Assembly: GCA_017408395.1 (NCBI GenBank)
Contig: JAFQUQ010000001.1
Coordinates: 1-48,202 of the forward strand
Direction: 5' to 3'
Length of the DNA: 48,202 nt
Source: Oscillospiraceae bacterium
GTDB lineage: Bacteria > Bacillota > Clostridia > Oscillospirales > Ruminococcaceae
Position 1 is the first letter of the stretch. The number at the start of each line of letters is the position of its first letter. Under the pieces are notes generated by a model. It was not told where the DNA came from, searched no databases, and was given only the letters and a program-made list of their open reading frames with translations. The position numbers and the translations under genes were made by a program. Below, piece by piece: positions 132 through 19,842 of this stretch.

Positions 132-155
132 AACCAACGACCTTCGGGTTATGAG
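132..155. repeat. Left attachment site (attL core)
   Basis: This is a 24-bp perfect copy of the tRNA-fMet segment at 8820-8843, running from the anticodon region to the T arm. The match ends at 131, where A replaces G. Sequence further left does not resemble the tRNA acceptor arm, so the original attB flank has decayed or been replaced. Confidence 0.85.
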
Positions 156-296: not shown

Positions 297-567
297 TTAC
301 TCTGTACCTGCTCATTGTGATCAGGTGCTTTTATTTTATTCTGTCATGATATAATTGTCAAGCCGTTGCACTTACAAACACAGCTGTAAAATGAACTGCA
401 AGCGGTCAGAATTGCCCCGTATTCAATTATAAGGGTTTAAGCAGTAAGAAAACAGTAAAATCACAAAAGCCTTAAAAACAGTCTATAAATTGCAGGAAAA
501 GGGGACGAATTCGACCCATTTTATTTTTTAAAGTTTTAACCCCCTCGAATTCGATGGGTTTAAAATG
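297..567. other. Noncoding left end of the element
   Basis: No convincing gene is present. The stretch holds one exact ACCTGCTC (306-313) paired with a nearby CAGGT as a small hairpin, and two copies of the palindrome CGAATTCG (506-513 and 546-553) embedded in a larger imperfect inverted repeat with CCCATTTTA/TTTAAAATG-like arms. That inverted repeat could be an origin or regulatory structure, but nothing in it proves this. Confidence 0.5.
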
Positions 568-569
568 TA

Positions 570-605
570 AACTGAGCAGGTAATATAAAACTACCTGCTC
601 AGTTT
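570..605 (-). terminator. Terminator of the hicB operon, built from inverted GAGCAGGT copies
   Basis: The arms AACTGAGCAGGTA and TACCTGCTCAGTT pair perfectly around a short A/T loop directly downstream of the hicB stop codon. The stem consists of two inverted copies of the element's repeated 8-mer (574-581 and 593-600). This resembles how uptake sequences in Neisseria double as terminators. Confidence 0.65.
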
Positions 606-608
606 GAT

Positions 609-1004
609 TTAATTAAGATGAAGCTGCTCTTTAAGAGCTGTCTGGAGTACAGCAGAAAAGTTTATATTCGCTTTTTCTGCCATTTCATTAAGCCAGGAGG
701 GAATAGTGCAGTTCTTTTTTACACTTCTGTTATCGATCATACGGCGGTAAGCTTCAAAGTCAACATCCACAAGGATTTTAAAATCACCGTCTGCACACTT
801 AACGCTTTCAAAAGCGGAAGGCTCAGGGATAGGCAATTTATTATTCTGTCTGCTTATACCGACAACGTTAATAGCGTCTCTTGCCATTTCCATAGCTTCA
901 GGAATGGTTTCACCGAAAGTATTATTATCAAAATCAGGAATATACACAAGGTAGCCGCTGCCGTCATCACATTTTGTAAGAATTACAGGGTAACAGGTTT
1001 TCAT
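609..1004 (-). CDS. HicB-family antitoxin-like protein
   Basis: A 131-aa protein whose first ~70 residues match the HicB partial RNase H-like fold: MKTCYPVILTK, then a GSGYLVYIPDF stretch and the TFGETIPEAMEMARDAI segment typical of HicB. The C-terminus (SWLNEMAEKANINFSAVLQTAL) looks like a ribbon-helix-helix DNA-binding or dimerisation unit. HicB normally neutralises the mRNA-cleaving toxin HicA and represses its own operon. No HicA-like ORF adjoins it, so it is an orphan HicB, either a transcriptional repressor for the element or partner to an unrecognised toxin. It is last of a four-gene leftward operon after the RHH protein, DUF2442 and DUF4160 genes. Confidence 0.75.
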   Translation of the reverse strand: MKTCYPVILTKCDDGSGYLVYIPDFDNNTFGETIPEAMEMARDAINVVGISRQNNKLPIPEPSAFESVKCADGDFKILVDVDFEAYRRMIDNRSVKKNCTIPSWLNEMAEKANINFSAVLQTALKEQLHLN

Positions 1005-1022
1005 ATATCATCTCTCTTTTAA

Positions 1023-1046
1023 TGAGCAGGTCTTTTCACCTGCTCA
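1023..1046. repeat. Inverted GAGCAGGT pair in the hicB leader
   Basis: TGAGCAGGT at 1023-1031 and ACCTGCTCA at 1038-1046 form a 9-bp stem with a six-base loop. It lies between the RHH gene and hicB, a few bases before the hicB Shine-Dalgarno. It could be a partial terminator, an RNA processing structure or a protein-binding site. Confidence 0.7.
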
Positions 1047-1051
1047 AAGGG

Positions 1052-1246
1052 TTATTCAGTTACGTTGTCACGCTCAATAGTTTCTCGTACAGCACGATTG
1101 AGGAACTTATTAAGTGTGCCGTCTGTCTTTTCTGCGTGTGCAACTATGCTTTCTTTTTCACCTTTGGGAACTTTCATTTCAAGGCGGTCATAAGCTTTTT
1201 TATTATATTTGGCATTCGCCCTTTGCCTTGCTTCACTTATTGCCAC
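1052..1246 (-). CDS. Small ribbon-helix-helix (Arc-like) DNA-binding protein
   Basis: The 64 residues have the layout of a CopG/Arc-type protein: a basic start (MAISEARQRANAKYNKKAYDR), a short beta segment LEMKVPKGEKES and two helices ending NKFLNRAVRETIERD. Proteins of this kind dimerise and bind palindromic operators, often as antitoxins. It lies two bases after the DUF2442 gene and before hicB. It is the best candidate to bind the three TATCGATAGTGTAT-like sites upstream of the operon, but that link is inferred from position only. Confidence 0.65.
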   Translation of the reverse strand: MAISEARQRANAKYNKKAYDRLEMKVPKGEKESIVAHAEKTDGTLNKFLNRAVRETIERDNVTE

Positions 1247-1248
1247 TA

Positions 1249-1506
1249 TTACACCCCCATATTAGCAGGAACGCTGTCCTGATACATCTTGTCAGGGCAT
1301 ATATCCACTTCGATACCGTTTGCAAGCCACGTTACAGCACCGTATTCAAGATATACCCTATCAAATACAGCCTTGTTATTAAGTGGCTCGAATACGCCGC
1401 CACGAGCAATAAGCGGCTTTATATCTGCTATACGCTTTTCGCCGTTGTCAAATTCAGCAAGCAGCCTGAAATCACATAAAGGCTTTACACTTACAACAGT
1501 TTTCAT
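1249..1506 (-). CDS. DUF2442 domain protein
   Basis: An 85-aa protein beginning MKTVVSVKPL. An upstream in-frame ATG at 1536 exists, but GGAGGTG lies seven bases before the ATG at 1506, which decides the start. The segments RLLAEFDNGEKRIADIKPLI and VTWLANGIEVDICPDKMY are typical of DUF2442. The family is commonly encoded next to DUF4160 proteins, as here, and the pair behaves like a toxin-antitoxin-type module whose biochemistry is poorly defined. It lies 54 bp downstream of the DUF4160 gene. Confidence 0.75.
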   Translation of the reverse strand: MKTVVSVKPLCDFRLLAEFDNGEKRIADIKPLIARGGVFEPLNNKAVFDRVYLEYGAVTWLANGIEVDICPDKMYQDSVPANMGV

Positions 1507-1560
1507 AAATACGCACCTCCGTATAAATTGAAGCAAGCGGCGAAAACCGCCGCACCTGAT

Positions 1561-1818
1561 TTACTTCAAAGGCTCAATTTTAAATATCTGTTCGCCGTTT
1601 TCTGCAAGCTTCCAGTTTGCTACTAATTCATCGTGATGAATTGCTATCCACGCTTCAACAAGCTTTCGTTGCTTCTTTGGTATATCGCCCTCTATAAGTT
1701 CACCGTCAAAGTCAAAACAAGCTGTATCATCTCCATATATAGCGTGAATATGCGGCGGATTGTGGTCATCATAGTACATTCTGATTAAAATACCGTAAAA
1801 CATTGATATTGTCGGCAT
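1561..1818 (-). CDS. DUF4160 domain protein
   Basis: An 85-aa protein with the family hallmark at its start: MPTISMFYGILIRMYYDDHNPPHIHAIYGD, a histidine-containing DHNPPHIHA motif, followed by WIAIHHDELVANWKLA. DUF4160 and DUF2442 genes are frequent neighbours on mobile elements and are suspected toxin/antitoxin partners. This is the first gene of the leftward operon and has a Shine-Dalgarno site (GGAAGGAGTG) eight bases before its ATG. Its promoter lies at 1842-1870. Confidence 0.75.
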   Translation of the reverse strand: MPTISMFYGILIRMYYDDHNPPHIHAIYGDDTACFDFDGELIEGDIPKKQRKLVEAWIAIHHDELVANWKLAENGEQIFKIEPLK

Positions 1819-1841
1819 TGTATCACTCCTTCCATACTCTT

Positions 1842-1947
1842 ATTATACTATATTTATACACTATCATCAATATACATCATATACAATATCGATAGTGTAT
1901 ATTTAGCTACATTGCATATTGATTTTGTACTATCGATAGTGTATAAT
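1842..1947. promoter_or_regulatory. Divergent promoters with three shared operator sites
   Basis: Leftward: TTGATG (complement of 1865-1870), 17-bp spacer, TATAAT (complement of 1842-1847), facing the DUF4160 operon. Rightward: TTGATT 1919-1924, 17-bp spacer, TATAAT 1942-1947, facing the HIRAN gene. Three related sites occur: ATACACTATC at 1857-1866, ATCGATAGTGTAT near 1888-1900 and ACTATCGATAGT at 1929-1940. The last fills the rightward spacer and the first fills the leftward one. One repressor could therefore shut both promoters; the RHH and HicB proteins of the leftward operon are candidates. Confidence 0.75.
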
Positions 1948-1999
1948 AATATCAAGGTCAGATAAACAGACCGAATAAACTGAAAGGAGCAGGTCAATA

Positions 2000-2422
2000 A
2001 TGAGTAAAACGAGAAGTAAGGTAATGACAATTGCAAACGCTCTTGTAAAGCACGGTATGAGCCGCAGGACGGCTATGCTGAAAGCGTGGATAATTGCAAA
2101 AGCTTCAGCAATCAGAACAAAGATAAAGGGCACAAGCCGCCGTCAGAGTGAACTTGAAAAGCTTGCAGGCGTAAAATCAGACGAAATAAAGGTAATGCTT
2201 AAAAGAGAGCCGAGAAACCGCCGTGACAGCAACGCAATTGCTGTATACGCTGTTTTAAGCAATCACAGGGTATTCTTTATAGGTTATCTTCCGAGAGCCT
2301 TAGCGTGCATTACAGCCCCTTTGTTTGATAAAGGCTGTGAAGTTTGTACCGAGTCGTTCATAGTAACAGGCGGCTTTAACCCCTGGGTAAATTTCGGTGC
2401 TGCTCTTACTCTTGTGATATAG
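2000..2422 (+). CDS. HIRAN-domain protein
   Basis: A 140-aa protein. Residues ~60-110 contain VMLKREPRNRRDSNAIAVYA, then FFIGYLPRALACI, matching the HIRAN consensus (REPdNpyDpNAIaVy followed by IGylPr.lA). HIRAN domains bind DNA ends or stalled forks and are usually attached to helicases or nucleases; here the domain is nearly free-standing after a basic N-terminal helix region (residues 1-50). A good start site, AAAGGAGCAGG, overlaps one GAGCAGGT copy. A role in recognising the element's replication intermediates is a reasonable guess, given the rolling-circle Rep on the same element, but it is inference. Confidence 0.65.
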   Translation: MSKTRSKVMTIANALVKHGMSRRTAMLKAWIIAKASAIRTKIKGTSRRQSELEKLAGVKSDEIKVMLKREPRNRRDSNAIAVYAVLSNHRVFFIGYLPRALACITAPLFDKGCEVCTESFIVTGGFNPWVNFGAALTLVI

Positions 2423-2462
2423 GACCTGCTCGATAATAAAATTATGAAAGGATGTTTTCATT

Positions 2463-2648
2463 ATGAGTGACAAGGTTGTGCTTACGGACGGTATAAGTGA
2501 ATCTGATTATGAATTGTTGGAACTGATCAGCAAATTATCACCCGAACAAAAAGCTGTCTGTAAAGAAGCATTTACGACTGCGTTACAAGAATTCCACAAG
2601 TCCAAAGTTTGGGCGTTGTGTGCAGTAACAGAAAACAATGATATTTGA
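2463..2648 (+). CDS. Small hypothetical protein
   Basis: A 61-aa acidic protein with a helix-rich middle (YELLELISKLSPEQKAVCKEAFTTALQEF). It resembles the small accessory proteins of phages and plasmids but no family is recognised. AAAGGATG precedes the ATG, and it is transcribed with the HIRAN gene 40 bp upstream and the 176-aa gene 15 bp downstream. Confidence 0.6.
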   Translation: MSDKVVLTDGISESDYELLELISKLSPEQKAVCKEAFTTALQEFHKSKVWALCAVTENNDI

Positions 2649-2663
2649 AAGGAAGTTTTAAAA

Positions 2664-3194
2664 ATGGCAAAGGTAACAGTAAAAAGAATTGCAAAGGTGA
2701 CAGCTCAGGATACAGAACAGCAGAAAGTAAAGGCAGTGACAGAGAAAGTAAAAGCCGACAATGAGCAGGTAACACATAAAATTACATCTGAGCGTGAATT
2801 TATTGAATCATTCGAAAAGCTCACTCCTGCTCAGAAATACTCTCTTGAACAGACAATCAAAGGCTGTGAAGCCGGTACATTATCAACTGATCCAACACAG
2901 ACGTATTTATTTGCAGGTGAAAGAATAGGGGAGTACAACGCCTATGAGCTGGCTTATGATGCAATAACTGATGATTATTTAGAAGCTTATGTGTGTCTGG
3001 AGGAAATAGATGCAATATCACAGGCTGCAAACTGTTACTGCGATACAAATTACGACATTGAAGGTGCTGAAATAGTCATTTCAAGTATTTATAGAGCTAT
3101 CCGCAAACTCACCAAGGCCGCAAGAGAATACATGGACGACGGAGACAACAAGCTTTTAAGTATAAAACGCCCACGTACTGTAAAGGCTTCATAA
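2664..3194 (+). CDS. Hypothetical protein, 176 aa
   Basis: The N-terminal 40 residues are repetitive and basic (MAKVTVKRIAKVTAQDTEQQKVKAVTEKVKA) and probably disordered or coiled coil. The rest is acidic and helix-rich, with a phrase SEREFIESFEKLTPAQKYSLEQTI that echoes LSPEQKAVCKEAF of the 61-aa gene just upstream, suggesting the two are distantly related. No known family is recognised. It is the last gene of the rightward operon and converges on the sigma factor gene. Confidence 0.6.
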   Translation: MAKVTVKRIAKVTAQDTEQQKVKAVTEKVKADNEQVTHKITSEREFIESFEKLTPAQKYSLEQTIKGCEAGTLSTDPTQTYLFAGERIGEYNAYELAYDAITDDYLEAYVCLEEIDAISQAANCYCDTNYDIEGAEIVISSIYRAIRKLTKAAREYMDDGDNKLLSIKRPRTVKAS

Positions 3195-3203
3195 TGCATA
3201 CAG

Positions 3204-3229
3204 ACCTGCTTAGAAAAATCTGAGCAGGT
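3204..3229. terminator. Hairpin between converging genes
   Basis: ACCTGCT (3204-3210) and AGCAGGT (3223-3229) form a 7-bp stem with a 12-nt loop, again made from the element's repeated motif. It lies between the stop codon of the 176-aa gene and the sigma gene and includes that gene's last base. The following T-rich stretch (GATTTGTTCTT) is weak, so termination is only plausible. Confidence 0.45.
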
Positions 3230-4130
3230 TGATTTGTTCTTGTTGGTGCATAAGCTTATTTTTTCTGTAGTCAAGCTCCCGTTCACGTTCAATAAGTTGA
3301 GAATTGTTTATTTTTCCGCTGTAGAATTCGGTATAAAGCTTGTTGTATTCCCGTTTGAGCTGTTCAAGCTGCCTTGTGAAGTCCTGCTCACGGCGCTTGA
3401 TGTCGGTGCGTTCTATAGCTATATACTCCACGTTTGAAACGCCTGTCCGTTTATAAGCTGACAGGCTGTTATTGTATATACGGCAACTGTCATAGCCCAA
3501 ATCAGCCCCCAACCGCTGCAGGGACGGGTTTTCACGCATACGCTCAAAAATACGCTGTTCACGCTTCCGCATAGCTTCTTTGCTGACACTGTGCAAATGT
3601 GCAAGCTCTGAAAGCGTTCTGTTTCTGTAATAGCGTTCACGTACAAGCTCCTGTTCTTCCGTTGGAAGTTCCGACACCGCCTGTCTGACGGTCTCCCTTA
3701 TCGTGTCTTTCATCGAGAGCTGTTCCGTCAGTTCTTCGGGATTAGCCGTATCATCTGATATAAAATCAATGAGTTCGTCATTGTCCCCGTCAGCTTCTAC
3801 GCCGACAGGTGCGTTTAAACTATCTGCACTGTTGAGCAGGTCGGAGCTTAACAGGTTTCGGAAGGCATTTTTCAAAGGATAATGCAGATAAGAGGTAAAC
3901 TTATAGCTTTTATCAGGCTTAAAGCCCTCGACTGCTTTTAAAAATGCTTTGTAGCTTTCCTGTTTAAGGTCTGAGGACGTAACTCCGTAATGTGTCAGCG
4001 ATTCCCCGTAGGCTTTAAAATACCTCTCAGAGAGTATATAAAAGAGCTTACGGACTCTTTCCCATAAAATCGGTATAAGTTCATCGTTTCCCCCTTGCTG
4101 AATGAAAACTGCGAGCTGTTCATTGGTCAT
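3210..4130 (-). CDS. Element-encoded sigma-70 family factor
   Basis: A 306-aa protein. Residues ~20-95 (LWERVRKLFYILSERYFKAYG...DLKQESYKAFLKAVEGFKPDKSYKFTSYLHYPLKNAFRNLL) follow sigma region 2: the DLxQE..a.f.Av..fdp...f.Fts....a.rna order is clear. Residues ~150-200 (VSELPTEEQELVRERYYRNRTLSELAHLHSVSKEAMRKREQRIFERMR) are region 4 with its helix-turn-helix. The C-terminal ~70 residues form a basic coiled coil (RREQDFTRQLEQLKREYNKLYTEFY) not found in housekeeping sigma factors. It probably directs RNA polymerase to element promoters, though the promoters visible here look like ordinary TTGACA/TATAAT. AAGGGGG lies upstream of the ATG with a slightly long spacing. Confidence 0.8.
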   Translation of the reverse strand: MTNEQLAVFIQQGGNDELIPILWERVRKLFYILSERYFKAYGESLTHYGVTSSDLKQESYKAFLKAVEGFKPDKSYKFTSYLHYPLKNAFRNLLSSDLLNSADSLNAPVGVEADGDNDELIDFISDDTANPEELTEQLSMKDTIRETVRQAVSELPTEEQELVRERYYRNRTLSELAHLHSVSKEAMRKREQRIFERMRENPSLQRLGADLGYDSCRIYNNSLSAYKRTGVSNVEYIAIERTDIKRREQDFTRQLEQLKREYNKLYTEFYSGKINNSQLIERERELDYRKNKLMHQQEQINLLRFF

Positions 4131-4538
4131 AAAGGCATATTTCCCCCTTGTTTCACAACAAATTGAAATTTTTCAAAATCCCATTTTGGGAATTTTTTAT
4201 TTACAGAGAGCAGGAGTAGGTGTGGAATGAAAATAAAACCGTTTTTGTCAGGAGTCGGGGGAGTAAAGCACGGAAAACACGGCGTTTGCAGGTCACGGGA
4301 ATATATTTCCGATTTCTTCCTCAAATACATACAGACCTGCTCAGATTTAATTTTTATTGCTATAAAAAACGGCAAAAAATGCTTGAAAAACGCTTAAAAA
4401 CACATAAAAATAAGCAATTTTCTACATAAAAATGATTAAATTTGCTTATAATTCAAATTTCAATGCTTTCGTTGTAAAACGTGCCGTAAATTCGAGTATC
4501 TAAAAGAGCAGGCGATAGTAAATTTTTTCGGCAGGCCG
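4131..4538. other. Noncoding region between rep and the sigma gene
   Basis: About 400 bp without a credible gene. It contains an inverted repeat around AATCCCATTTTGGGAATT near 4179-4196, an AT-rich block at 4345-4470 and GAGCAGGT copies at 4335-4342 and 4557-4564. Lying directly downstream of the HUH Rep gene, it is a reasonable place for a replication origin, but no nick-site motif can be assigned by eye. Confidence 0.4.
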
Positions 4539-5321
4539 TTATAGCCTTGCCGATGTACCTGCTCTGTGATTTGAGAATATAGGCTGTATGTTCAGCGGAT
4601 TTGTTACCTGACGGACATACTTGAAATAAATATAGCTGCTTTTATAATACTCGCTTGTTTTTGCTTCAATAAAAACATACCCCTTCGGAGCTTTCGGCGG
4701 ACGGTCTGGGCTGTAAGCCCTTTTAACTTCCTTTTTCTCCGTAACGGGCTGTAAAATGCTTTTGGTCTGCTTCCAGCGCTTGCCCTTGTATTCAGCAGGA
4801 GCGTGTTTATGAAGATATACGGCGAGAGCTGTGAAGTCCTCGCCGTGGTCTGTGCCGTTGTAATAGTTGTGCTTTCTGAGCTGTTCCGCTTTTGATACAG
4901 TTCCGCAGCTCCATTTGTTTAATATGTCTGCTTCCGACACATTCTCTATGATTAAATGATGATGCAGTCGTCCCGATGAAACGCCGTAACCCGTAACGGA
5001 AATAATACGGGCATTGGGGTTTGAATATTTCAGCCGCCTTGTGTAGTTGTCTATGCATTTTAATGCTTCTGAATAGCTTTCGGGCAGGTGCTCATTGTCG
5101 TATGTAAGGGTAACATAATATCCGCCGCTTGTGAAATTGGCATTTATAAGACGTATAAAATGCTTTTCGGATTTGCGGCGGTTGTAACGCTGCTTTTCTT
5201 CGGGAGTGCGGACGTTTTCGGTTTTGGGCTCGCTGTTTCTGATACTGCGTGTGTTTTCGGGCACGGTGTAAATTTCTATTTCGCAAACCGCCCCCGATGT
5301 TGTTTTCTGCCTGCAGGTCAT
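4539..5321 (-). CDS. Rolling-circle replication initiator (HUH endonuclease)
   Basis: A 260-aa protein. Three HUH motifs are in order: motif I at residues ~66-80 (GGYYVTLTYDNEHLP), motif II at ~118-124 (GRLHHHLII, histidines 120-122 coordinating the metal) and motif III at ~167-175 (LAVYLHKHA, with Tyr169 as the likely nicking tyrosine). The layout matches the Rep/VP4-like proteins of microviruses and related plasmids. It would nick the plus origin and become covalently bound to the 5' end. It is 14 bp downstream of a 131-aa gene with which it forms an operon. A conjugative relaxase is less likely, as the protein is short and lacks helicase or mobilisation partners. Confidence 0.75.
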   Translation of the reverse strand: MTCRQKTTSGAVCEIEIYTVPENTRSIRNSEPKTENVRTPEEKQRYNRRKSEKHFIRLINANFTSGGYYVTLTYDNEHLPESYSEALKCIDNYTRRLKYSNPNARIISVTGYGVSSGRLHHHLIIENVSEADILNKWSCGTVSKAEQLRKHNYYNGTDHGEDFTALAVYLHKHAPAEYKGKRWKQTKSILQPVTEKKEVKRAYSPDRPPKAPKGYVFIEAKTSEYYKSSYIYFKYVRQVTNPLNIQPIFSNHRAGTSARL

Positions 5322-5335
5322 GTTGTACGCACCCC

Positions 5336-5731
5336 TTATCCGAGGGCAATTTTAAGTTCTGCTATAAGCTTCTGCGTTTCCTTGCTCTTACTGCCTTTGG
5401 AATGTTCAAGGCAGTACAGAACGGCTTCAAGCTCTGATGAAAGAAGCTCCAGAGGGTAAATCGTCTGCGGTTTGCATTTCTCTGTCTTGTAAATAGCGGA
5501 ATTGATATTGTTTATATCAGTACCCGTACAGTGACGTTTAATAATATCCTTTGTACGTTCAAGGCGGTGTTCCGCTGTTCTCCTGCCGTTTGACAAAGCG
5601 GTTTTAATCTGATCCAGCTCCGACCTGCTCAGATCGAGATTAATTTTTACAACTGTTCCGCTGTGGTCGGGTGCTAAAAGATTGTCGGGTAATTCGATCT
5701 GAATTGTATCTGTATAATTGTTCTGTAACAT
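5336..5731 (-). CDS. Hypothetical protein upstream of rep
   Basis: A 131-aa protein with GGAGGT before its ATG. The N-terminus resembles a short beta-rich segment (DTIQIELPDNLL) and the rest is helical and charged (LSRSELDQIKTALSNGRRTAEHRLERTKDIIKR). The family is not recognised. Because it directly precedes the rep gene in the same transcript, it may be a replication accessory or copy-control protein. The candidate antisense RNA at 5787-5862 overlaps the leader of this gene, so both genes would be affected together. Confidence 0.6.
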   Translation of the reverse strand: MLQNNYTDTIQIELPDNLLAPDHSGTVVKINLDLSRSELDQIKTALSNGRRTAEHRLERTKDIIKRHCTGTDINNINSAIYKTEKCKPQTIYPLELLSSELEAVLYCLEHSKGSKSKETQKLIAELKIALG

Positions 5732-5751
5732 AATTTTTTACCTCCGATACT

Positions 5752-5862
5752 TGCACCTGCTCTGAAAGTGTGCTATAATCGGAGCAGGTGAATAGTTTTC
5801 ATATTTACTTATACGCTTTCTGCTGTGACTCGCCAAAGCTTCAGCAGAAGGCGTTCTTTTTT
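5752..5862 (+). ncRNA. Candidate counter-transcribed RNA with own promoter and terminator
   Basis: A rightward promoter, TTGCAC 5752-5757, 17-bp spacer, TATAAT 5775-5780, has no gene in front of it. About 30 bp further on begins a 13-bp hairpin, ACGCTTTCTGCTG (5812-5824) pairing with CAGCAGAAGGCGT, one G-U pair, followed by TCTTTTTT. A transcript from about 5787 to 5862 would be ~75 nt, antisense to the leader of the leftward hypothetical-rep transcript. This is the usual arrangement of copy-control RNAs of rolling-circle plasmids. Inverted GAGCAGGT copies (5755-5762 and 5782-5789) bracket the promoter. Transcription has not been shown. Confidence 0.65.
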
Positions 5863-5867
5863 ATGCT

Positions 5868-6149
5868 TCATAATCTTACGGGACGTATTGCACCGTTGGA
5901 AACGGGCTGTTCTTCTGTCTGCTCGGTATGTACGTTGAGATAGTCTATAAGCTTGTCAAAGTTAAGCAGTATCTTCCCGTTTTTGCTGTTTCCACCGCTT
6001 CTTATGCCTACAAGCTCGCCCGTAACAAAGGCATTGCGGAGAAAACGCTCCGAAAGCCCTGTTTCCTTTGCGGCTTCTTTAAGGGGTATCATTCTCGGAA
6101 TACGGCGGTTTACTTCTATGCGGTTGATTGTCTGGGCTGTGCTGGTCAT
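5868..6149 (-). CDS. Helix-turn-helix protein, excisionase-like
   Basis: A 93-aa protein with the winged-helix phrase MIPLKEAAKETGLSERFLRNAFVTGELVGIRSGGNSKNGKILLNFDKLIDYL, the pattern of MerR-like/Xis 'excisionase family' DNA-binding domains (residues ~18-72). Such proteins bend DNA at the attachment arms or act as regulators. It overlaps the upstream 63-aa gene by four bases (ATGA) and is led by AGAGGA. Its promoter is the repressor-controlled one at 6432-6460, consistent with excision being kept off by the XRE protein. Confidence 0.7.
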   Translation of the reverse strand: MTSTAQTINRIEVNRRIPRMIPLKEAAKETGLSERFLRNAFVTGELVGIRSGGNSKNGKILLNFDKLIDYLNVHTEQTEEQPVSNGAIRPVRL

Positions 6150-6337
6150 ACTGCCTGTTCCTCTCTTTCCTTTTTAAGCTTTGCAAGAATGTCATTAAGT
6201 TTGCTGACCTCTTCATCTGTAAACGGCTTGCGGAGCTTTCGGGAGAAATTCCCGTCCGTTATACCCCATTCACTTGCTACCTGCCAACAGAAAAAGCCTG
6301 CTGACTTGATTTTTTCTTTTACTTCTGTTCCGTTCAT
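6146..6337 (-). CDS. Small DNA-binding-like protein
   Basis: A 63-aa protein: MNGTEVKEKIKSAGFFCWQVASEWGITDGNFSRKLRKPFTDEEVSKLNDILAKLKKE. The phrase CWQVASEWGITDGNFSRKLR reads as a helix-turn-helix. Very similar small proteins are common just behind repressor genes on clostridial elements. It is the first gene of the leftward early operon, with AAAGG seven bases before ATG, and is translationally coupled to the excisionase-like gene. Confidence 0.6.
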   Translation of the reverse strand: MNGTEVKEKIKSAGFFCWQVASEWGITDGNFSRKLRKPFTDEEVSKLNDILAKLKKEREEQAV

Positions 6338-6431
6338 TTTTTCACAACCTTTCTAAAAATATAATTTACCTATTGATTTTGTTGTTGATGTATGGTAATA
6401 TGAAGATAACAACAAGTGTTTTCTTACGAAC

Positions 6432-6472
6432 ATTATATCACAACATTTGTTGCGTGTCAACAGCTTGTTGCA
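6432..6472 (-). promoter_or_regulatory. Early leftward promoter with repressor operators
   Basis: On the minus strand, TTGACA (6455-6460), 17-bp spacer, TATAAT (6432-6437) is a perfect consensus promoter for the leftward HTH genes and possibly rep. CAACATTTGTTG (6441-6452) fills the spacer and CAACAGCTTGTTG (6459-6471) overlaps the -35. Further ACAACAA half sites flank it at about 6409 and 6490. The adjacent XRE protein is the obvious ligand, giving a phage-like switch. Confidence 0.8.
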
Positions 6473-6535
6473 AAGATGATAGCAAAAACAACAAATATGT
6501 ATCTCGTGCGTTGTGTAATGGAGTGTGAAAAACAA

Positions 6536-7255
6536 ATGAATAGCACTGGTAAAATGTTTTCTGCTAAATTGAAAGAATTGAGAATAAAAAAAGGTTTGTC
6601 AAGAAAAGCTCTTGCGGCTGCACTGGAAGTTTCTACGGCGTCAATAGGTTACTATGAACACGGTGACCGAAAACCCGACATAGAGGTTTTAGTGAAAATA
6701 TCGAACTTTTTTGATGTATCGTGTGACTATTTATTGCGAGGTGTTGAATCGCAAAATATAAGCATACAATCTGAATTGGGATTTGATAATGAAGTTATTG
6801 AGCAAATCAGATATATAAAACAATTGCAATATGACGATATATTATCTGATGTTCTTTTAATGTATGAAATAATACCTTTTCTTGACAATTTAAAAAGAAT
6901 AATTTATAATGCTTATGCATTTGGAGAAGAAGAAACCGTTGTGAATGAGGTTTTTGACGAATTTTTAAAGGATATGACAGAAAAAAAGAATATGCAAGTT
7001 TTTGTTTCAGATCCAGAGCATATAAAAACTCATTTATTATCTGCTTGTCTTGCTAAGTACAATGAGCAAAATGAAGAAAACAACGATTTTTGTATGTATA
7101 AGGCAAAGAAAGCACTTGAAACGGTTTTTCGACATTATGAAAACAACATAATTACAGAAAAATGCAATCAAATGTCAAATATGCTGTATTTGATGTATAT
7201 GGAGCATTGTAAGGAGGTCTCCGAAGATGGCCAACATAACCCCCAGAACGAATAA
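6536..7255 (+). CDS. XRE-family repressor
   Basis: A 239-aa protein. Residues ~7-65 (FSAKLKELRIKKGLSRKALAAALEVSTASIGYYEHGDRKPDIEVLVKISNFFDVSCDYLL) are a classic HTH_3/Cro-C1 domain; the rest is a helical dimerisation or sensing domain without a visible LexA-type protease motif. Longer in-frame starts exist upstream (6416, 6518), but only the ATG at 6536 has a Shine-Dalgarno (GGAGTG, nine bases away), and the longer forms would read through the operator region. It overlaps the integrase start by 29 bases, so the two are translationally coupled. It probably keeps the leftward excision/replication operon silent. Confidence 0.8.
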   Translation: MNSTGKMFSAKLKELRIKKGLSRKALAAALEVSTASIGYYEHGDRKPDIEVLVKISNFFDVSCDYLLRGVESQNISIQSELGFDNEVIEQIRYIKQLQYDDILSDVLLMYEIIPFLDNLKRIIYNAYAFGEEETVVNEVFDEFLKDMTEKKNMQVFVSDPEHIKTHLLSACLAKYNEQNEENNDFCMYKAKKALETVFRHYENNIITEKCNQMSNMLYLMYMEHCKEVSEDGQHNPQNE

Positions 7256-8645
7256 AGACGGCTCTGTGTCCTATCTTATCCGTGTGTATGTTGATGAGGA
7301 CGGCAACGGAAAGCAGAAGGTAAAATCAAAGACCTGGAAACCGCCTGCAAATATGACCTCTCAGAAGAAAATCGAAAAGGAACTGCAAAAGACCGCCGCT
7401 ATCTTTGAGGAGCAGGTCAAAAAGGGTCTGATTGCCTTTGACGGCAATACAACCTTTGCGCAGTATTCCGAGGAATGGCTCAGGAACGCAAATATAGCAG
7501 TAAAAACAAAAGAACGCTATGAGGACCTTCTCAAACGTATAAATCAGGGGATAGGGCATATCCGCCTGTCAAAGCTTGAAGCACGTCACATAAGAGAGCT
7601 GGAGAAAAATCTCGGAGAAGCAGGAGTAAAACAGTGCGGTTATGCAGAGGATAAGGCTTTCAGTGACCTGCTCAGCAAGAAAAAGCTATCATACGCCGCT
7701 GTGTCACGTCTTTCGGGTGTGGCGGCTTCAACTGTAAGTGCTGTTTGCAACGGTCGGCATATCTCCATTGAAAAGGCTCAGCAGCTTGCAGGTGCATTCA
7801 ACTGCAAAACAGAGGACCTTTTTAAGCTTAATATAAGCAGTGAGGGATTGAGTGACAAGACGATACTCCATCATCACAGGCTTATTTCCTGTATTCTCGG
7901 TGCGGCTAAAAAAGAACGGCTCATACCCTTTAATGTTGCTTCTGAGCACATGGACACGCCGAAAGTAAGACGTACACAAGCAGATTTCCTTGACGATAAC
8001 GAGGCACGACTGTTTGTTGAGAAGCTTCTCAATGAAGAAGATCTTCGCATTAAAACGGCTCTTATGCTGCTTATATACACAGGCGTAAGGCGTGGGGAGC
8101 TGTGCGGTCTGGAGTGGAGGGACATTGACAGGGAAAAGAACATTATAAACATTCTCAGGGCTTCACAGTATCAGCGTAAAAACGGCGTTACCACCGTTCC
8201 CACAAAGAACGGCAGCAGTGAAAGACCGCTTAAAGTTCCTCAGATCGTTATTGATGTGCTTGACGAGTACAAGCGTTTTTACGACAACGCAAGGGAAGAA
8301 TACGGCTCGGAATGGACGGAATCAGGCAGAATTTTTGTAAATATGGATAATTCACCGGGTAAGCCTCTCAATCCTGATACTATAAACCGATGGCTCAACA
8401 AGTTTACCGAAAAGAACGGTTTGAAGAAAATACACCCTCACAGCCTGAGACATACATTTGCAACTATTCAGATTTACTCAGGTGTTTCTATAAAGACGGT
8501 TCAGGCCAGAACGGGACACGCTCAGGCTTCGACTATATACAATACATACCTGCATCAGATCAAGTCAGCCGATGAAGCGGCAACTGAAGCAATAGACAAC
8601 ATACTTACTCCAAAGCCGAAAGATGATAGGAAAAATGCCGTATAA
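7227..8645 (+). CDS. int: Tyrosine integrase with an inserted XRE-like helix-turn-helix
   Basis: A 472-aa protein. It has an arm-binding N-terminus (residues 1-70), a core-binding domain (~72-230) and a catalytic domain (~250-450). Catalytic residues are visible: Arg288 in TGVRRGEL, His405/Arg408 in HPHSLRHT, His431 in TGHAQ and Tyr441 in YNTYLH. Residues ~138-203 (KAFSDLLSKKKLSYAAVSRLSGVAASTVSAVCNGRHISIEKAQQLAGAFNCKTEDLF) form a complete Cro/C1-type HTH inside the core-binding domain, which is unusual. AAGGAGG precedes the ATG, and the start lies within the 3' end of the repressor gene. It would integrate the element into tRNA-fMet and, with the Xis-like protein, excise it. Confidence 0.9.
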   Translation: MANITPRTNKDGSVSYLIRVYVDEDGNGKQKVKSKTWKPPANMTSQKKIEKELQKTAAIFEEQVKKGLIAFDGNTTFAQYSEEWLRNANIAVKTKERYEDLLKRINQGIGHIRLSKLEARHIRELEKNLGEAGVKQCGYAEDKAFSDLLSKKKLSYAAVSRLSGVAASTVSAVCNGRHISIEKAQQLAGAFNCKTEDLFKLNISSEGLSDKTILHHHRLISCILGAAKKERLIPFNVASEHMDTPKVRRTQADFLDDNEARLFVEKLLNEEDLRIKTALMLLIYTGVRRGELCGLEWRDIDREKNIINILRASQYQRKNGVTTVPTKNGSSERPLKVPQIVIDVLDEYKRFYDNAREEYGSEWTESGRIFVNMDNSPGKPLNPDTINRWLNKFTEKNGLKKIHPHSLRHTFATIQIYSGVSIKTVQARTGHAQASTIYNTYLHQIKSADEAATEAIDNILTPKPKDDRKNAV

Positions 8646-8706
8646 AACAAAAAACAGAGCAGGTCACATGATGTGACTTACCCTGTTTACAGTGCCTTTT
8701 TATGTC

Positions 8707-8798: not shown

Positions 8799-8875
<77 letters not shown>

Positions 8876-18834: not shown

Positions 18835-19842
18835 TTATGCTAAAGAATAGATTAAATTTGCAATAATGCCTGCCGCAAGTGCGGCAAGTGAAAATGTTAT
18901 CACGATTTTGTACTCGCTGAAATCGCAAAGCTCAAAATGGTGGTGGATAGGTGTCATTTTAAAGATACGCTTGCCCTTTGTTGCCTTGAAGTAAAGCACC
19001 TGGATAACTACGGAAAGCGCCTCGCAGATGTAAACTATGGCAATAATCGCAAGGAGCAGGTGCTGTCTTGTGACGATACCGATCGCAACTACCGCACCGC
19101 CTAAAAACATTGAGCCTGTGTCGCCCATAAACACCTTTGCGGGATGTAAATTCCACACAAGGAAGCCTAAACAGCCCCCCGCAACTGCCATTGAGAAAAT
19201 GGAATATTCCCACAGTCCCATTGCAGAGCAGAGCATTACAAAGGAAAGCATCGAAACCACCGTTACCGAGCCGCATAAGCCGTCGATACCGTCCGTGAGG
19301 TTTACGGCATTTGTAAGGAACACGATAACAAGCAGTATGAAGGGATAATAGAAAATGCCGATGTCAAGCTCAAACCAGTAGAAATTAAGGGTGGTTTTAA
19401 CGTCCCCAAGCATATAGAGCACCACAAGGAACGCACTTGAAAAGATAAACTGGAGCACCATTTTCTGCCACGCTCTCAGACCTAAGTTCTGCTTTTTCAC
19501 AGCCTTGATGTAGTCGTCCATAAAGCCGATGACGGTGTTTAAAAGTGCAAACACGTAGCCTGCAATAAGCTTGTAAAGGCCTGTGTTGTCGGGGATAGCG
19601 GCGGTCTGTGAGTTCATACGGTATAAACCGCAGCCCAGGGTGATGGCAACGGCAGAGCCGAGAATGAACATAAAGCCGCCCATAATGGGTGTGCCCTGCT
19701 TGCTTTTGTGCCAGGCAGGACCGTCCTCGTATATAGTCTGACCGAAATGTATCTTTTTAAGCAGCGGTATGAGAAAAAGTCCCGTAACTGCGGCTATTGC
19801 AAAGGCGGTGAGCGCCGTGACAATATTTATCCAGAATGGCAT
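18835..19842 (-). CDS. mraY: Phospho-N-acetylmuramoyl-pentapeptide transferase
   Basis: A 335-aa integral membrane enzyme making lipid I from UDP-MurNAc-pentapeptide and undecaprenyl phosphate. Visible motifs are GPAWHKSKQGTPIMGG, the aspartates of NAVNLTDGIDGLCG, MGDTGSMFLGGA and the cytosolic TPIHHHFELCDFSE loop. About ten membrane helices. It lies 15 bp after the murEF gene. The usual next gene, murD, is absent. Confidence 0.97.
   Translation of the reverse strand: MPFWINIVTALTAFAIAAVTGLFLIPLLKKIHFGQTIYEDGPAWHKSKQGTPIMGGFMFILGSAVAITLGCGLYRMNSQTAAIPDNTGLYKLIAGYVFALLNTVIGFMDDYIKAVKKQNLGLRAWQKMVLQFIFSSAFLVVLYMLGDVKTTLNFYWFELDIGIFYYPFILLVIVFLTNAVNLTDGIDGLCGSVTVVSMLSFVMLCSAMGLWEYSIFSMAVAGGCLGFLVWNLHPAKVFMGDTGSMFLGGAVVAIGIVTRQHLLLAIIAIVYICEALSVVIQVLYFKATKGKRIFKMTPIHHHFELCDFSEYKIVITFSLAALAAGIIANLIYSLA

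Follow-up and report, generated by a model that had tools for sequence, protein, structure and literature searches.

A candidate Chi-like octamer accumulated on both strands of a satellite-like integrated element in a clostridial genome

AddAB helicase-nucleases degrade linear DNA until they read a Chi site in the correct orientation. The DNA uptake sequences (DUS) of Neisseria and the uptake signal sequences (USS) of Pasteurellaceae are also short words; they load the host chromosome and occur in either orientation, within genes as well as in hairpins. Chi-like words named for Firmicutes in the relevant sections of PMC8022716 and PMC5959072 are AGCGG (Bacillus subtilis), GAAGCGG (Staphylococcus aureus) and GCGCGTG (Lactococcus lactis). 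The same sections of PMC8022716 question the stimulation of recombination by the B. subtilis word, and count Chi-like sequences as established in only five species, with more predicted in Proteobacteria; the number is small because such sequences are difficult to detect on chromosomes. For Escherichia coli, part of the account of Bobay et al. 2013 (PMC3784561) has phages without recombinases over-representing Chi, with a median observed to expected ratio (O/E) of 3.12, and the more so if they package concatemers; it gives approximately 0.2 Chi per kb in both E. coli and its recombinase-less phages. Phages and Chi are also discussed in a portion of PMC8791490. Here we describe an octamer, GAGCAGGT, that is concentrated in an element of ~8.7 kb integrated at a tRNA-Met gene. 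The element lies in a window of 48,202 bases (the whole stretch of DNA analysed) on contig JAFQUQ010000001.1 of an Oscillospiraceae bacterium, genome G000. Judged from its sequence and distribution, GAGCAGGT, or more generally GAGC[A/G]GGT, is probably a Chi-like site of the host AddAB, or something very close to one.

Of the 20 exact copies of GAGCAGGT in the window, 18 fall at 306-8664, nine on each strand, and the other two at 19054 and 20560. In 100 dinucleotide shuffles of the whole window the mean was 1.14 copies and the maximum 5. No other 8-mer of the element is as strongly over-represented as this one, which has 18 copies against 0.36 expected (~50-fold, order-2 model; ~105-fold, order-1 model). 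A first-pass annotation of the window had reported the same copies and strands at ~60-fold; the counts hold and the factor under the order-2 model is somewhat lower. The genome as a whole does not approach this density, with 174 copies in 1.85 Mb, or 0.085/kb outside the element compared with 2.07/kb inside. The element has accumulated the motif on both strands. The fairly even spacing that had been described was not borne out, since the coefficient of variation of the gaps is 0.69 (pairs less than 60 bases apart merged) and random placement reaches the same evenness in 12% of cases. The reported inverted pairs (574/593, 1024/1038, 5755/5782) do exist, and the first two fold as strong hairpins. 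Copies are also found, as had been noted, both between genes (9/18) and in different frames, the other nine covering five of the six (mechanical open reading frames, ORFs, of at least 70 aa). Across six motif-rich elements, 70 of 107 GAGC[A/G]GGT sites are in ORFs, in all six frames, in-frame sense being the commonest (20). Coding bias as the cause of the enrichment is ruled out by the occurrence in six frames and both senses. A mobile repeat or tandem array is likewise ruled out, as the copies lack a longer surrounding repeat; no repeated flanks or longer repeat family were found around them in the window element.

The octamer belongs to mobile DNA beyond the window element. The replication initiator (Rep) of the element had matches in 22 of 149 genomes, its own included. 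The closest, L026, was found independently of the motif and has 6 copies of GAGCAGGT in 4.5 kb. It lies in Ruminococcus sp. UBA946 (Clostridia; contig C196 of genome G025), to whose family the window host belongs, and a scan of genome contigs gave a single match, identical to L026. Distant Rep relatives in G+C-richer DNA (L036, L044) are rich in GGAGCGGG, and most other Rep regions had no such enriched word. Viral contigs reached through Rep alignment (80 loci kept) offered distant Rep alone, the best segment being short and 45% identical, and were not used further; a plasmid search by Rep returned one distant Rep. A scan for the motif's hairpin gave at least one match in 50 of 396 family genomes, compared with 5 of 396 for a reversed control; in viral contigs the hairpin was matched by at least 120 stretches. 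At 20 hairpin loci examined in the family genomes, GAGCAGGT was the top octamer in four (L285, L290, L291, L296) and the second, after GAGCGGGT, in L289; in the remaining 15 it did not stand out, with 2-9 copies in 12-20 kb. Three elements found via the hairpin were L285 (27 copies in 12.1 kb, strands 15:12), L291 (9 in 7.8 kb, 5:4) and L289 (9 in 13.1 kb, 6:3, with 14 GAGCGGGT). These three, L026 and the window element all lie above every length-matched chromosome window (control windows came from four genomes, which are not the hosts of every element; L416, 10.5 kb, was left out). L285 encodes a primase as well as a terminase small subunit, and L289 encodes a helicase of phage type, and so both look like phage satellites; for these relatives the satellite context suggested earlier is supported.

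A set of elements not chosen by the motif came from the sigma-70-like factor, which had matches in 18 of 396 genomes, three of them already known (G000, G001, G025); these places are left out of the set of 17 relatives. An AGCNGG core was contained in the top heptamer of 6 of the 17 (L347, L348a, L351, L355, L358, L359) compared with a single one of 144 windows of 8.5 kb taken from chromosomes (Fisher p = 4e-6, with the core defined after these elements were seen). Moreover, GAGCRGG was above every length-matched window in five (L348a, L351, L354, L358, L359) and above all but one in L360 and L361. Drifted words were GGAGCAGG (L354), CAGCGGGT (L355), AGCAGGCT (L351) and GGAGCTG (L352). The check on related elements that the first-pass annotation had proposed thus divides, the closest relatives being enriched and the more distant ones often having a drifted word, another word or none. 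Three further features were seen in these loci. L354 (7000-15000; satellite-like, genome G180) contains 18 copies of a near-palindrome, TGTGTACA, possibly operator or initiator sites. The top octamer of L353 (1-8500) is TGGAGTAA, with nine copies, and in L348 (1-19901; G719) two sigma/integrase elements adjoin, one GAGCGGG-rich and the other not.

The host of the window carries a second, largely different element, L290, which encodes an integrase and a WYL-domain protein. It has 9 GAGCAGGT in 7.0 kb, more exact octamers than any of 74 length-matched windows (G000, G004), and has only distant integrase and helix-turn-helix (HTH) families in common with the window element. Prophages carry the word too. 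In L041 (G004), which has a terminase according to PHROGs, there are 10 copies in 20 kb, strands 10:0, and its contig holds 15 between 351.6 and 373.8 kb compared with 10 in the first 350 kb. L047 (G005) and L037 (G003), called prophages from reading of their ORFs, have 7 each in ~20 kb, strands 7:0 and 6:1. By exact octamer the three same-genus prophages (10 copies in 20 kb, 7 in 20 kb and 6 in 13.5 kb) are above each of 37 matched windows (G000, G004), and by GAGCRGG L041 alone stands out. No RecT/Erf/Sak/Gam-type match was found among 10 L041 proteins scanned (other elements were scanned in part) or among 11 proteins of the window element (three of 61-64 aa fell outside the scan).

As a positive control, GCGCGTG was counted in six elements of L. 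lactis IL1403, the prophages of which are described in part of PMC6127208. In bIL310, a satellite with a terminase and a helicase, it ranks first among heptamers, with 7 copies against 0.37 expected, and it has zero copies in bIL285, bIL286 and bIL309, prophages annotated with Sak, Erf and RecT. Among viral contigs with the bIL310 helicase (hosts taken from 89-100% helicase identity), GCGCGTG was present in 24 of 42 and the top heptamer in 11 of 42, with strands at 68:70. A terminase small subunit generally indicates headful packaging. In a comparison of 41 satellites (bIL310 added; L467 and L468, 3.9-kb fragments with 0 Chi, left out), those positive for this subunit all carried 3-14 copies (16/16), whereas 24 of 25 negative ones had 0-2 (16 none) and one had 4. 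The densities are 0.667/kb and 0.054/kb, respectively, and among contigs of at least 12 kb there are 8 positive with 3-14 copies and 18 negative with 0-4; these statistics ignore shared descent, and the positive elements are related and not independent, which lessens their weight for the Chi-like reading. The clearest gene-cluster difference between Chi-rich and Chi-poor satellites was terminase small subunit versus head maturation protease, the latter family being found in 15 of 19 elements with one Chi at most compared with 1 of 15 with four or more. No recombinase was seen to set the Chi-poor satellites apart among the gene clusters compared. Among 18 homologous contexts (non-redundant), 15 have a difference in the Chi heptamer, compared with 39% for control heptamers. 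This test is inflated in favour of our reading because sites were chosen for Chi presence on one side; as 15 of the 18 contexts differ, Chi sites seem to be gained or lost by substitution as well as inherited. These data give evidence that lactococcal satellites load up on the host Chi and that, by analogy, the window element may do the same. Separately, six terminase-negative elements (L450, L452, L456, L458, L461, L462) have CGGTAAC as top heptamer, with GGTAACA, in 9-12 copies that are perhaps origin iterons.

The octamer shares several properties with the Chi of AddAB and RexAB, being a short, G-rich, non-palindromic word used on both strands in mobile DNA, in a host with AddA. Its core, AGC(A/G)GG, is similar to the AGCGG and GAAGCGG of B. 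subtilis and S. aureus. As in the Chi-rich lambdoid phages, the word is over-represented in mobile elements without a recognised recombinase of their own; the carriers here differ in being small integrative elements. The window element has 2 copies per kb compared with the 0.2 per kb given for E. coli and its recombinase-less phages in that part of PMC3784561, and O/E is ~50 for the window octamer (order-2) and 18-26 for GAGCRGG (order-1) compared with the median of 3.12 for phages lacking recombinases in the same source. The elements also resemble satellites of the phage-inducible chromosomal island (PICI) type, such as bIL310, in being small, with an integrase, a repressor, a replication gene and no structural gene recognised, and L285 adds a terminase small subunit. 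The window element differs from PICIs in its initiator family and in having no recognised terminase subunit, and its dependence on a helper phage is putative.

If the motif is Chi-like, AddAB that starts at either end of element DNA that is linear or broken would meet a correctly oriented copy within ~1 kb and would switch there from degradation to RecA loading. The element DNA would thereby be spared and recombined into multimers, which are what headful packaging by a helper phage would need. Being rich in Chi could in this way aid the survival and multiplication of the parasite. A broader proposition, which we regard as finely balanced and slightly on the doubtful side, is that satellites are read-outs of host Chi. 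Loading of both strands at ~0.7-2.6/kb would then be recurrent and tied to headful packaging with a terminase small subunit, GAGC[A/G]GGT would be a first Chi proposed for this clostridial group, and GGAGCAGG, CAGCGGGT and AGCAGGCT would be the variants of neighbouring genera. Our searches of open-licence full texts found neither a link between satellites and host Chi nor a Chi for Clostridia or this group, and one on satellites in Clostridia had nothing relevant among the matches listed. If satellites concentrate host Chi 20- to 50-fold, then their sequences alone would show what Chi is. For many uncultured bacteria, AddAB sites would become testable predictions, and the rule of 'host Chi or own recombinase' would extend from phages to satellites, with a link to packaging genes.

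AddA of G000 is full-length and scores 810 bits against a cut-off of 708; it was above the cut-off in 19 of 31 genomes searched, G000 included, with weaker matches coming from other helicases, as in control genomes. In 439 kb of G000, GAGCAGGT occurs 38 times compared with 20.9 expected (order 4), and is distributed 32:6 on the G-rich strand, rank 4 of the 5,230 octamers that have 15 or more copies on one strand (the leading strand is taken from GC skew alone). In 400 kb of G180, GGAGCAGG, which has 18 copies in that genome's own element, is distributed 65:15, rank 2 of 4,122. In G179 (310 kb; contigs under 10 kb left out) GGAGCGGG is among the twelve most polar words, 34:6.

The chromosomal evidence for a Chi-like site is nevertheless mixed, and a number of observations weigh against this reading. 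When all 840 permutations of the letters of GAGCAGGT were used as a control in G000, 11 of 379 others with at least 10 copies were as polar, all with 14 copies or fewer. Other coding-like words in G180 are equally polar, and the near-palindrome TGTGTACA outranks GGAGCAGG in the G180 element. Outside its prophage, G004 (350 kb) has 10 GAGCAGGT compared with 16.6 expected, at 7:3 and with a weak GC skew, and CAGCGGGT, the element word of G179, shows no strand polarity there (19:31). Enrichment of GAGCRGG on chromosomes is modest (O/E 1.3-1.9). Over-representation on the sampled chromosomes is weak or absent and polarity inconsistent, a difference from the Chi-like sites of Firmicutes. The 31 genomes searched for AddA are other than the hosts of L026, L289 and L291, and of the two subunits the search covered AddA. 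Among the elements, L027-L029 (Rep 37-42% identity) have only 1-2 GAGCAGGT per 20 kb, 8 of the 17 sigma relatives show neither pattern (L346, L348b, L349, L350, L352, L353, L356, L357), and L047 and L037 are not enriched in GAGCRGG, 11 and 4 of 72 matched windows being as high. With a narrow profile, no terminase small subunit was found in the window element, and L285 was the sole match among the Ruminococcus-related elements; the window element may have other genes that hijack the packaging of a helper. In L. lactis, GCGCGTG has zero copies in bIL311 and bIL312.

The roles listed in the first-pass annotation were given without a choice between them; a Chi-like site is now favoured, and binding by an element protein and uptake of the Neisseria type are disfavoured. 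The main rival, which we consider unlikely, is that a protein from the elements or from their helper phages binds the octamer, with a function in replication, packaging or nucleoid-like coating, and that satellites retain the word in order to have their DNA recognised by it. Such a protein would suit a word that is enriched in satellite-like elements and same-genus prophages and not strongly on chromosomes; one prophage has an initiator in phrog_3584, the PHROG family of the window's Rep, and a conserved motif pair flanks a promoter. However, none of the ORF families detected (ORFs of at least 50 aa, BLASTP E 1e-3; some contigs partial) spans the whole set of 11 motif-rich elements, the most widespread occurring in 9 of 11, which argues for a reader on the side of the host and against one encoded by the elements. 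The word is also common to different replication modules (L285 primase, L289 helicase), 18-27 sites on both strands exceed the usual need of initiation or packaging, and the same pattern in Lactococcus coincides with a known Chi.

It is improbable that the octamer instead serves several local functions, as part of terminator stems, operator pairs and ribosome-binding sequences, and owes its spread to chance together with common descent. Intergenic GAGC[A/G]GGT sites are in excess (37/107 in the six elements), two pairs form the hairpins described above, and copy 6 overlaps a likely ribosome-binding region. The position of the pair around the promoter at 5755/5782 is kept in L291, where one copy is GAGCGGGT. 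This intergenic excess and the conservation of the pair in place count against a purely Chi-like explanation, and for this reason some copies may have local roles. The substitution in L291 also suggests that A and G are exchangeable at the fifth base of the motif. One site, at the C-terminus of rep, is common to the window element and L026. Against local functions as the whole explanation stand the 70 of 107 sites inside ORFs in all six frames, the lack of a longer repeat family around the copies, and the recurrence of this word in elements whose genes differ.

A marginally less probable proposal than local functions is a signal that orients the FtsK or SpoIIIE DNA pump, of the type of the FtsK-orienting polar sequences (KOPS) or the SpoIIIE recognition sequences (SRS). 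The polarity on the G000 chromosome (32:6) and the one-strand bias in prophages (10:0, 7:0, 6:1) are what such a signal would show, and GAGAAGGG, the SpoIIIE site of B. subtilis, matches the octamer in 6 of 8 bases. The G004 sample, however, has no clear polarity, and strands are near balance in the small elements (window 9:9, L285 15:12, L291 5:4, L289 6:3), where a directional pump signal would hardly be usable. Least probable of all is a DUS-like signal raising the chance of uptake or transfer of element DNA, since the octamer, although dispersed on both strands in and between genes and in hairpin pairs as DUS and USS are, loads mobile elements and not the host chromosome (0.085/kb versus 2.07/kb), is carried by prophages too, and has its analogue in a Lactococcus word that is Chi.

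The integrated element postulated in the first-pass annotation is real, being bounded by 24-bp direct repeats, the right one within the tRNA-Met gene (Table 1). For the comparisons, the limits of the elements were set by eye.

Table 1. Attachment repeats, copies of GAGCAGGT and main genes of the window element.
Feature	Position	Strand	Remark
Left attachment repeat, 24 bp	132..155	.	identical to 8820-8843
GAGCAGGT copy 1	306..313	-	
GAGCAGGT copy 2	574..581	+	hairpin arm with copy 3
GAGCAGGT copy 3	593..600	-	
GAGCAGGT copy 4	1024..1031	+	hairpin arm with copy 5
GAGCAGGT copy 5	1038..1045	-	
GAGCAGGT copy 6	1987..1994	+	overlaps likely ribosome-binding region of HIRAN gene (by eye)
HIRAN-domain protein	2000..2422	+	relatives in L285, L289, L291
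GAGCAGGT copy 7	2424..2431	-	
GAGCAGGT copy 8	2763..2770	+	
Sigma-70-like factor	3210..4130	-	relatives in L285, L289
GAGCAGGT copy 9	3222..3229	+	within terminator-like stem 3203-3230
GAGCAGGT copy 10	3834..3841	+	antisense in sigma gene
GAGCAGGT copy 11	4335..4342	-	
Replication initiator	4539..5321	-	REP_ORF2-G2P; phrog_3584
GAGCAGGT copy 12	4557..4564	-	rep C-terminal codons; same place in L026 (R-A-G)
GAGCAGGT copy 13	5623..5630	-	
GAGCAGGT copy 14	5755..5762	-	overlaps promoter -35 (by eye); L291 has GAGCGGGT there
GAGCAGGT copy 15	5782..5789	+	directly after -10; kept in L291
HTH_3 repressor-like protein	6416..7255	+	
Tyrosine integrase	7227..8645	+	internal HTH domain
GAGCAGGT copy 16	7410..7417	+	in int
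GAGCAGGT copy 17	7666..7673	-	antisense in int
GAGCAGGT copy 18	8657..8664	+	downstream of int
Right attachment repeat	8820..8843	.	in tRNA-Met (8799-8875, minus strand)

Other genes of the element encode a HicB-like antitoxin, DUF2442 and DUF4160 proteins and, by eye, a ribbon-helix-helix-like protein and two small DNA-binding-like proteins. No virion gene was recognised among the 11 proteins scanned, which, together with the integrase and the attachment repeats, is a hallmark of satellites. Within the integrase there is an internal Cro/C1-type HTH at residues ~147-201; it had no match in the L291 integrase and a weak one, below the cut-off, in L289.

At 5751-5862 a promoter with a weak -35 (TTGCAC, 17 nt, TGC-TATAAT) was seen by eye between two motif copies; it was not listed by a promoter scan. 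Downstream of it lies a stable hairpin that ends in a U tail, giving a predicted RNA of ~75 nt (z -4.9) on the strand opposite to the rep operon. This RNA had no Rfam match, its layout of promoter and hairpin is the same in L291, and it is possibly a copy-control RNA.

Lastly, CTCGAG, GTCGAC, GAGCGG and GCGGG are strongly avoided in the 439-kb sample of G000, which suggests restriction systems. GAGCGG has zero copies in the window element, an absence that may explain why this element uses the A variant of the motif alone.

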